This document shows, in pieces, positions 20,865 to 25,052 of a DNA stretch of 64,000 bases. The first letter of the stretch is position 1. The number at the start of each line of letters is the position of its first letter. Location: positions 124,001 through 188,000 of the forward strand of contig JAJPGV010000035.1 in NCBI GenBank assembly GCA_021325635.1, in the 5' to 3' direction. The stretch is from Chloroflexota bacterium (lineage in GTDB: Bacteria; Chloroflexota; JAJPGV01). The position numbers were made by a program, and so were the translations under genes. The notes below the pieces were generated by a model. The model searched no databases. It was not told where the DNA came from and saw only the letters and a program-made list of their open reading frames with translations.

Positions 20865-20999
20865 GGGGTAATCCTACGTATATGGGCCGCGGGCGGGTAT
20901 TTGGTGGCGATGGCTCGACTGCGACATCGGGCCATACGGCAACCGGTGCGCTAACAGCGATGAGCCGGCACGCGCTCTTGCCCGCCGGGGGTCCGTTTT

Positions 21000-21076
21000 T
21001 GGTGGGCGAAACAGGGCTCGAACCTGTGACCTCCCGGGTGTAAACCGGACGCTCTGACCAACTGAGCTATTCGCCC
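21000..21076 (-). tRNA. tRNA-Val(TAC), CCA encoded
   Basis: Minus strand GGGCGAATAGCTCAGTTGGTCAGAGCGTCCGGTTTACACCCGGGAGGTCACAGGTTCGAGCCCTGTTTCGCCCACCA; cloverleaf folds, anticodon loop TTTACAC gives TAC. Confidence 0.95.
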
Positions 21077-21149
21077 CTGCTGGCCGAGAGCCGGAAGCTC
21101 GACAGGCCAGCTAGGCCGTGAGCCGCCGTTTGCCTCTTGCCACCAGGAG

Positions 21150-21231
21150 TGCCGAGGATGGGACTTGAACCCATACGCCTTGCGGCACACGCCCCTCAAA
21201 CGTGCGCGTATACCTATTCCGCCACCTCGGC
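21150..21231 (-). tRNA. tRNA-Leu(GAG)
   Basis: Minus strand GCCGAGGTGGCGGAATAGGTATACGCGCACGTTTGAGGGGCGTGTGCCGCAAGGCGTATGGGTTCAAGTCCCATCCTCGGCA; long variable arm, anticodon loop TTGAGGG gives GAG. Confidence 0.94.
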
Positions 21232-21371
21232 CTGTGCGGCGTCTAGTATACCTACGGGAGGTGCCCAAAATGGGCGGCGGCGCGGAAAAAGGTCCCGCAC
21301 GGCTAGCCTGCTTAGACAGGCGCTGATAGAATCAGCCGCAACATGGCTCCTTTTCGGAGGGAGGGCCGGCC

Positions 21372-22718
21372 ATGAGGCTGCGATTCTGGGGCACGCGGGG
21401 CTCTATCGCGGTTCCCGGTCCCGACACTGTTCGCTACGGGGGCAACACGTCCTGCGTCGAAGTGGTGAGCAACGACGTGCTCATCATTTTGGACTGCGGC
21501 ACCGGCGTCAGGGGACTGGGCCTGGACCTGATGGCCAATCGCAAGCCGCCCATCGAAGCGCACATCCTCCTGAGCCACACGCACTGGGACCACATCCAGG
21601 GATTTCCGTTCTTCCCCCCCGCGCTGGCGCCAGGGAATCGCATCACGGTCTACTCGGCCCGCGGCTACGAGAAGCCGCTCAAGGAAGTCCTCGAGGGCCA
21701 GATGGACTACACCTATTTCCCCATCAAGCTGGCGCAGATGGCTTCGGATATCAACTTCCGCGAAGTGGACGAGGAGACGTTCGACATCGGTCACGTGCAG
21801 GTGACCTCGCACTTCATGAATCACACCGTGCTGGCGATGGGTTACAAGCTGTTCAGCGGCGGCAAAACCATCGTTTATGCCACGGATACTGAGCCGTTCG
21901 GCACGTACCACACGGACGGCACGACAGGCGGCAGCGCAGTCAGGCCACAGTTCGTGCACGAAGGGGACGTTCGGTTCATTCATTTCATCGAAGGTGCCGA
22001 CGTGCTCATCCACGACGCCCAGTACACCGAGCAGGAGTACCCCAAGAAGGTTGGCTGGGGCCACAGCACCGTGGACTACGCCGTGGAGGTTGCGCTCGCC
22101 GCCAAAGTCGGCCATCTGGTCCTCTTCCACCACGACGTTATTCGGACCGACGATCAGGTGGCCCAGCTAGAGGAGTACGCCCGTAATAAGGTAGCCGAGC
22201 GCGGCAGCTCGCTGATCGTCACCGCCGCGGCGGAAGGCACCGAGATCGATCTCGAAGAGCGTGATGAGATGCGCATCCACCGCCGTCTATCCAGTCCCGC
22301 GCCGGCCACCAGGCGCTACAAGCTGCTGTTCGCCGACGACGATCCCTCCACTATTCGCCTGCTGCAGGAAAGCTTCTCCGACGAGCATCTGTACGACGTG
22401 CACGTGGCGCCGGACGGCATCAAGGCCGTGGAGATGGCCAGCGAGCTGAAGCCGGACCTGGTTCTGCTGGATATGCGCCTCTCGCTGCTCGATGGCTATT
22501 CCGCTACTAAGGAGATTCGCCACCAGGCGCAGCTGAAGCACACGCCGGTGCTGATCATCACCGACCACTCCAGCGAGGAAATCGAAGCCGAGGGCTTCAA
22601 GATCGGCGTCACCGACTTCATGCGCAAACCCTTCGCGATCGCTCAGCTGCGCGCTCGCGTGCAGATGTGGCTGCACCGACAGGATCAGCCCAACAACGCG
22701 ACTTCGATTCTCGCCTGA
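21372..22718 (+). CDS. MBL-fold metallo-hydrolase fused to C-terminal response-regulator receiver domain
   Basis: MBL part: MRLRFWGTRGSIAVPGPDTVRYGGNTSCVEV, LSHTHWDHIQGFPFF, LVLFHHD. REC part: KLLFADDDPSTIRLLQESF, DLVLLDMRLSLLDG, LIITDHSSEE, FMRKPF. Confidence 0.93.
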   Translation: MRLRFWGTRGSIAVPGPDTVRYGGNTSCVEVVSNDVLIILDCGTGVRGLGLDLMANRKPPIEAHILLSHTHWDHIQGFPFFPPALAPGNRITVYSARGYEKPLKEVLEGQMDYTYFPIKLAQMASDINFREVDEETFDIGHVQVTSHFMNHTVLAMGYKLFSGGKTIVYATDTEPFGTYHTDGTTGGSAVRPQFVHEGDVRFIHFIEGADVLIHDAQYTEQEYPKKVGWGHSTVDYAVEVALAAKVGHLVLFHHDVIRTDDQVAQLEEYARNKVAERGSSLIVTAAAEGTEIDLEERDEMRIHRRLSSPAPATRRYKLLFADDDPSTIRLLQESFSDEHLYDVHVAPDGIKAVEMASELKPDLVLLDMRLSLLDGYSATKEIRHQAQLKHTPVLIITDHSSEEIEAEGFKIGVTDFMRKPFAIAQLRARVQMWLHRQDQPNNATSILA

Positions 22719-23980: not shown

Positions 23981-24161
23981 CGTCTGTAAGTGTGACCGTT
24001 TGGGTGGCCTCGAACGTTTGGGCTGCGCCTTTCAGGCCAGACCCTAGCCAAAGGGGCCATTGCTGATCAACAATTTCCTGCTTGGGCTGGATTGGACTCC
24101 CCTGCACGCGCTACCCTAAAGTCTCAGCCTTGCCGAAGTCCTAAGGAGGAACCCCTACCGT

Positions 24162-24995
24162 TTGGCGACCTTGATGAACGACCCGGTTTCCGCCGAGCAG
24201 CGATCGGCGACGGTGTACGTACGACTGCGTAACGTCACCAAGCTGTACCGATCGCGGCGTGAAAGCGTTGCTGCCGTGAGCAACGTTAACCTGGACATCG
24301 CGACCGGGGAGTTCGTGTCCATCATTGGGCCGCGAGGCTGCGGCAAGAGCACCCTGATGTCGATTGTGGCCGGCTTGATCCCGGTTTCCTCGGGCTCGGT
24401 CTCGATTGCCGGCCGTACGGTGAAGAAGGCTCAGACCGAGATTGGCACTGTCTTTCCCGACCCGATACTGCTCGATTCCCGGTCCGTGCTGGAGAACGTC
24501 CTGCTGCAGGCCGAGATCCGCGATCTGGACGAGCAGGAGTACGTGCCCCGCGCCGAGCGGCTGATCGAGCTGGCCGGCCTGAAGGCGGTACGAGACACGC
24601 AGCTGTTTGGCCTATCGCCGGCGCACCGGCAGCGGGTCACGGTGTGTCGCGCTTTTGTACACGATCCACCGCTGCTGCTGCTCGACGAGCCGTTTGCCGG
24701 GCTCGACGCGGCGCATCGCCAGCAGGCGGTGCTGGATCTGCAGAAGGTATGGATGTTCTCGCCCAAGACCGTGCTGTACATTGCGAGCTCGGTCGCCGAG
24801 GCGGTGCTGCTGTCCGATCGGGTCATCGTCATGACGCCCGCTCCGGGTACGGTCGAGGCCGATGTTGCCATCGAGGTGCCGCGCCCGCGGCTCCTGGACG
24901 CCGCCACGCTGGCTGAGCTGAAGCCGTATGCCGAGCAGATCAGGCGGATCTTCGAAGGCCATGGCATCCAGCCCGAAGACCAGCCCGCTGCCTGA
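24162..24995 (+). CDS. ABC-transporter ATP-binding-like protein (SsuB/TauB/NitD-like) with degenerate motifs
   Basis: Walker A GPRGCGKST and Walker B LLLLDEPFAGLD intact; signature region LSPAHRQRV, Q-loop position Pro, H-loop position Ser. Confidence 0.88.
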   Translation: MATLMNDPVSAEQRSATVYVRLRNVTKLYRSRRESVAAVSNVNLDIATGEFVSIIGPRGCGKSTLMSIVAGLIPVSSGSVSIAGRTVKKAQTEIGTVFPDPILLDSRSVLENVLLQAEIRDLDEQEYVPRAERLIELAGLKAVRDTQLFGLSPAHRQRVTVCRAFVHDPPLLLLDEPFAGLDAAHRQQAVLDLQKVWMFSPKTVLYIASSVAEAVLLSDRVIVMTPAPGTVEADVAIEVPRPRLLDAATLAELKPYAEQIRRIFEGHGIQPEDQPAA

Positions 24996-25002
24996 CCCCC
25001 AG

Positions 25003-25051
25003 ACCCTGAACCCTCGACCCTGAACCCTAGGCCCTAAGCCCTAAACCCTCA
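25003..25051. repeat. seven-unit 7-bp degenerate tandem repeat (consensus RCCCTRA), intergenic
   Basis: accctga/accctcg/accctga/accctag/gccctaa/gccctaa/accctca, exact 7-nt register, between convergent stops. Confidence 0.85.
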
Positions 25052-25052
25052 C

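Follow-up and report, generated by a model that had tools for sequence, protein, structure and literature searches.

Results

Three altered motifs in an importer-type ATPase

What becomes of an importer ATPase that keeps the motifs of its own ATP pocket and loses those through which it would hydrolyse ATP and couple to a membrane partner? The question is raised by an ABC ATPase, here called the degenerate NBD, that is encoded in a 64,000-nucleotide stretch of DNA from a Chloroflexota bacterium; the whole of this stretch is referred to as the window. The gene and its motifs are as follows.

24162..24995, + strand: open reading frame of the degenerate TauB/SsuB/NrtD-type ABC ATPase, 277 amino acids, TTG start, with an alternative ATG at 24174
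24143..24150, + strand: Shine-Dalgarno-like AAGGAGGA, 11 nt 5' of the TTG, read from the sequence
24327..24353, + strand: Walker A, GPRGCGKST, residues 56-64, intact by alignment; S58R is unusual
24447..24479, + strand: Q-loop region, TVFPDPILLDS, with Q99P and W106S
24612..24638, + strand: signature region, LSPAHRQRV, residues 151-159, replacing LSGGMxQR(V/A)
24672..24707, + strand: Walker B with the catalytic Glu, and D-loop, LLLLDEPFAGLD, residues 171-182, intact by alignment
24774..24803, + strand: switch (H-loop) region, LYIASSVAEA, with T208A and H209S (TH to AS)

An alignment was built of the protein and 134 homologues drawn from its own genome, its own phylum and GTDB species genomes. 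The original prediction had described Walker A, Walker B and the D-loop as intact and the Q-loop, signature and switch His as lost, and had called for an alignment with SsuB/TauB/NrtD-type proteins; the alignment confirmed both parts of the description in the open reading frame. All 134 homologues are canonical at the lost sites, with the consensus residue at Q99, G153, G154, T208 and H209 in 134 of 134, and the degenerate NBD alone departs (Q99P, LSGGM to LSPAH, TH to AS). Because these five sites are invariant across the alignment, the departures are not chance. Following the Q-loop, Ser106 replaces the Trp of LL[PD]W. It had also proposed to check whether homologues in related genomes have the substitutions in common; none of the 134 carries them, the best identity being 51%. 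At the signature (GGCGGCATG-like to CCGGCGCAC), a single compensated micro-indel, instead of many substitutions, could account for the change; such a compensated frameshift is possible by eye and is not demonstrable.

In ABC ATPases, the signature touches the ATP bound by the opposite subunit, sensing of the gamma-phosphate and contact with the membrane domain fall to the Q-loop, and the H-loop His matters for hydrolysis (PMC7756269; PMC7544095). With Walker A, Walker B including its Glu, and the D-loop intact, ATP binding in cis is plausible. Since the Q-loop, signature and H-loop are all lost in one chain, a homodimer would have both of its sites impaired.

Ancestry and genomic setting

The degenerate NBD matches Pfam ABC_tran (PF00005) at 93.1 bits against a cut-off of 25. 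Its best NCBIfam matches include the SaoA, TauB, NtrCD and SsuB models, and because it scores far under every equivalog cut-off among the models listed, it takes no specific substrate name. CmpD and NrtD are the best PDB matches both by sequence and by fold. The closest homologue (L122, in genome G096) is 51% identical, and the homologues, all at or below this identity, have intact Q-loop, signature and H-loop motifs. No match above 51% was found in 400 genomes of the phylum, in the 29-genome class containing the best matches, or among the matches listed from a scan of GTDB r220 contigs, and none of those genome sets yielded an orthologue bearing the same substitutions. The degenerate state is known from this one sequence.

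In the tree, the degenerate NBD is nested among canonical importer NBDs, its exact position being weakly supported. Its nearest relatives are ordinary NBDs, nearly all of which adjoin an importer permease and/or binding protein; among its tree neighbours, both a permease and an NMT1-like binding protein adjoin L143, L144, L147 and L042, and a permease adjoins L145. Its own terminal branch is the longest of its neighbourhood, at 0.87 against a median of 0.28 (about threefold). Tree nesting, sequence and fold are those of a TauB/SsuB/NrtD-type importer NBD; the Q-loop Gln, LSGG, switch His and a nearby cognate permease and SBP are missing. We conclude that this is a real, well-marked degenerate member of a known family.

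The gene sits between a divergent MFS transporter gene and a convergent plsY, with parAB following. The original prediction held that no permease or binding-protein gene adjoins it, and this is so for the window as a whole, where tblastn with the permeases and SBPs of relatives gave a best E of ~0.03. The divergently transcribed MFS gene is a candidate partner by position only. Other features of the locus were noted in passing. A short CCCTGAACCCT/CCCTAAACCCT-like array resembling a degenerate heptamer repeat lies at 24997-25052, between the ABC gene and plsY. Further upstream, 21372-22718 on the + strand encodes a metallo-beta-lactamase-fold (RNase Z-like) domain fused to a C-terminal response-regulator receiver domain, and 21000-21231 on the - strand holds tandem tRNA-Val(tac) and tRNA-Leu(gag), on which the open reading frame 20951-21268(-) is an artefactual overlay.

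Signs of selection and of decay

The reading we favour, and to which we give an even chance of being right, is that the protein is a former importer NBD that is now a soluble, ATP-binding and essentially non-hydrolysing protein uncoupled from transport. Its ancestor would have been the energising NBD of a taurine/sulfonate/nitrate-type ABC importer; permease and binding protein would have been lost, along with the residues for composite-site hydrolysis and membrane coupling, and the protein's own ATP pocket and fold would have been retained. At present it would most likely be a soluble NBD pseudo-ATPase, which may bind or regulate another protein in a nucleotide-dependent manner. A further proposal, tentative and on the unlikely side, is a standalone pseudo-NBD: an importer ATPase that has departed from transport to act as a soluble ATP sensor or scaffold without hydrolysis, having discarded its trans-acting and coupling motifs and kept the ATP pocket. 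The observed basis is the motif loss, ancestry in a canonical importer clade, the lack of a local permease or SBP, a coding-like composition and a predicted intact fold; from these we infer ATP binding, absence of hydrolysis and a retained cellular role.

The main rival, which we hold to be a serious contender although somewhat improbable, is that the gene is an early relic: an NBD left after the loss of permease and binding protein, decaying in a frame that is not yet broken. The orphan state of the gene is consistent with such a history, as is the lack of a close match to the relatives' permease type in its own genome, where the best match (39%, on contig C23) is already served by an adjacent NBD. 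The long branch is compatible with relaxed constraint as well. That the degenerate state is known from one sequence, with no orthologue bearing it, counts against the favoured reading.

The distribution of the changes bears on this choice. Forty-two of 57 sites that are near-invariant in the 28 closest relatives are kept in the degenerate NBD. Losses fall at 7 of 12 such sites in the Q-loop, signature and switch, at 3 of 18 in its own ATP site (all three outside the catalytic residues) and at 5 of 27 elsewhere, so several conserved residues outside the motifs are lost too, as decay would have it. At conserved sites, then, it is mainly the inter-subunit and coupling motifs that have changed, with the protein's own ATP pocket spared; label permutation gave p ~0.004 for this concentration, with a post hoc grouping chosen after the data had been seen. 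The 15 lost sites represent at least 23 nucleotide changes, at least 12 of them in the 12 motif sites (36 nt). Against decay, each lost motif has taken several nucleotide changes, yet Walker A, Walker B, the D-loop and most of the other invariant sites are preserved, and the frame is unbroken: residues 18-272 of the 277 align to the closest homologue without a stop, frameshift or truncation. When random substitution was simulated at the motif density of 0.33 per nt, the open frame survived in 0.45% of cases, and at 0.20-0.25 per nt in 1-3%. Drift so seldom spares the frame in these simulations that purifying selection probably acted on the rest of the gene as the motifs were changing, and selection probably kept the frame through much of the motif loss at least. 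A recent loss of constraint, or a signature altered in one compensated event, may nevertheless be compatible with this argument.

Codon usage and the Shine-Dalgarno sequence also speak against a relic. Codon usage is normal, with a codon adaptation of 0.63 and GC3 of 0.82, like the neighbours, as against 0.38 and 0.33 in the shifted frames. The Shine-Dalgarno sequence before the start is strong. No sigma-70-like promoter was found upstream of the gene, a point against the favoured reading. An AlphaFold model predicts an intact fold (pLDDT 93.6, pTM 0.89), although a confident fold would be expected even for a recently inactivated copy, given an alignment of intact homologues.

Candidate partners in the genome

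The original prediction had called the protein a non-hydrolysing or regulatory subunit, perhaps one half of a heterodimer, and had proposed a search of the genome for a canonical paralogue with an orphan permease or SBP. Both types exist; none is specific to the degenerate NBD. The genome contains 71 BPD_transp_1 matches and 66 NMT1-type matches. Its seven TauB/SsuB-like paralogues (L002-L008) are all canonical at the lost positions, and its canonical NBDs of this type are 30-40% identical to the degenerate NBD. Five SsuC-type permeases have no adjacent TauB/SsuB-type NBD (contig C60 at 48.5 and 58.4 kb, C57 at 65.9 kb, C25 at 92.0 and 92.9 kb). These are most like each other and the L136 permease, which is paired with a canonical NBD (L002), and we rejected them as orphan permeases of the cognate type since they belong to the L136 subfamily. 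They were also inspected as specialised partners with altered coupling helices, and none was seen; the helices look ordinary. As the genome is 96% complete, a partner gene may be missing from the assembly.

We consider it improbable that the protein is the degenerate member of an NBD heterodimer, with its canonical NBD and permease encoded elsewhere. Such a pair could be assembled on paper from the canonical NBDs and the five permeases, and NrtCD and CmpCD, of the same family and the closest solved folds, are NBD heterodimers. However, cis (Q, H) and trans (signature) lesions occur together in one chain, and a heterodimer with a canonical NBD would have one site without Q and H and the other without the signature, so that both composite sites would be compromised; the lesions are not confined to one site with the other restorable. 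The Walker B Glu, the residue most often altered in cis at a degenerate site, is intact. The residues for NBD-TMD coupling, Q99 and W106, are lost, and the orphan permeases are kin to the L136 permease rather than to the permeases of the degenerate NBD's own clade. In reviewed degenerate pairs, both NBDs contribute to the deviations of a single site, one having lost the cis motifs and the other the signature, and a consensus site remains (PMC7756269), and the case for a heterodimer is weakened because known pairs concentrate their lesions in one composite site and one chain holds them all here. The heterodimer part of the original prediction thus fares poorly, whereas a non-hydrolysing protein is plausible on sequence grounds and is part of the reading we favour.

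It is very improbable that the protein is a still-working importer ATPase with unusual motifs that energises an orphan permease in trans, in the manner of MsmX. Orphan multitask NBDs such as MsmX and MsmK are known (PMC7658222), and NBD-less permeases and NMT1-type SBPs are at hand in the genome; however, the protein has lost at once the Q-loop Gln, signature glycines and switch His that every one of the 134 homologues retains, and a canonical orphan NBD at C31:19171 (L004) is a far better candidate for energising in trans. That a sequencing or assembly artefact explains the gene is close to negligible even in a draft genome of 63 contigs, as three separate motifs are altered by multi-base in-frame replacements with no frameshift, which is unlike consensus-error patterns.

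Two observations concern the genome at large. L004 is 69% identical to the NBD of the L136 operon, and together with the five NBD-less permeases of the same subfamily it makes up a candidate MsmX-like system of shared energisation for substrates other than sugars. In addition, the 66 NMT1/SsuA-like SBP matches stand against ~8 TauB/SsuB-type NBDs and ~10 SsuC-type permeases: the binding proteins are greatly expanded, and most have no transporter adjoining them.

Discussion

ABC exporters commonly carry degenerate ATP sites, which in the reviewed cases lie beside a working site. In the open literature, we found no precedent for an importer NBD that stands alone and is without these motifs. If our favoured reading is true, a free-standing importer NBD that kept its pocket and dropped the trans-acting and coupling motifs would show that the fold is reusable purely for nucleotide binding; known from one sequence and with no orthologue, the degenerate NBD is a candidate only at present.

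With the TauB/SsuB/NrtD-type NBDs of importers that use NMT1-like SBPs, the degenerate NBD has fold, length, Walker A, Walker B and D-loop in common; it differs in lacking the Q-loop Gln, the signature glycines, the switch His and an adjoining permease or SBP. The best solved structural matches, with a TM-score of ~0.8, are CmpD and NrtD of cyanobacterial CmpBCD and NrtBCD (PDB 9u9z, 8w9m). These work in a membrane complex, and the aligned CmpD retains the residues that the degenerate NBD has lost. The multitask NBDs MsmX and MsmK are likewise encoded far from any permease gene (PMC7658222), but they are catalytically competent and energise importers. The degenerate NBDs of TM287/288, BmrCD, TAP, CFTR, Pdr5 and the importers RbsA/NupO persist despite the loss of hydrolysis motifs (PMC7756269, PMC4046567, PMC11466899). 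In those heterodimeric or fused proteins the lesions affect a single composite site and leave a canonical one, whereas in the degenerate NBD described here all of the lesions lie in one standalone chain whose Walker B Glu is intact.
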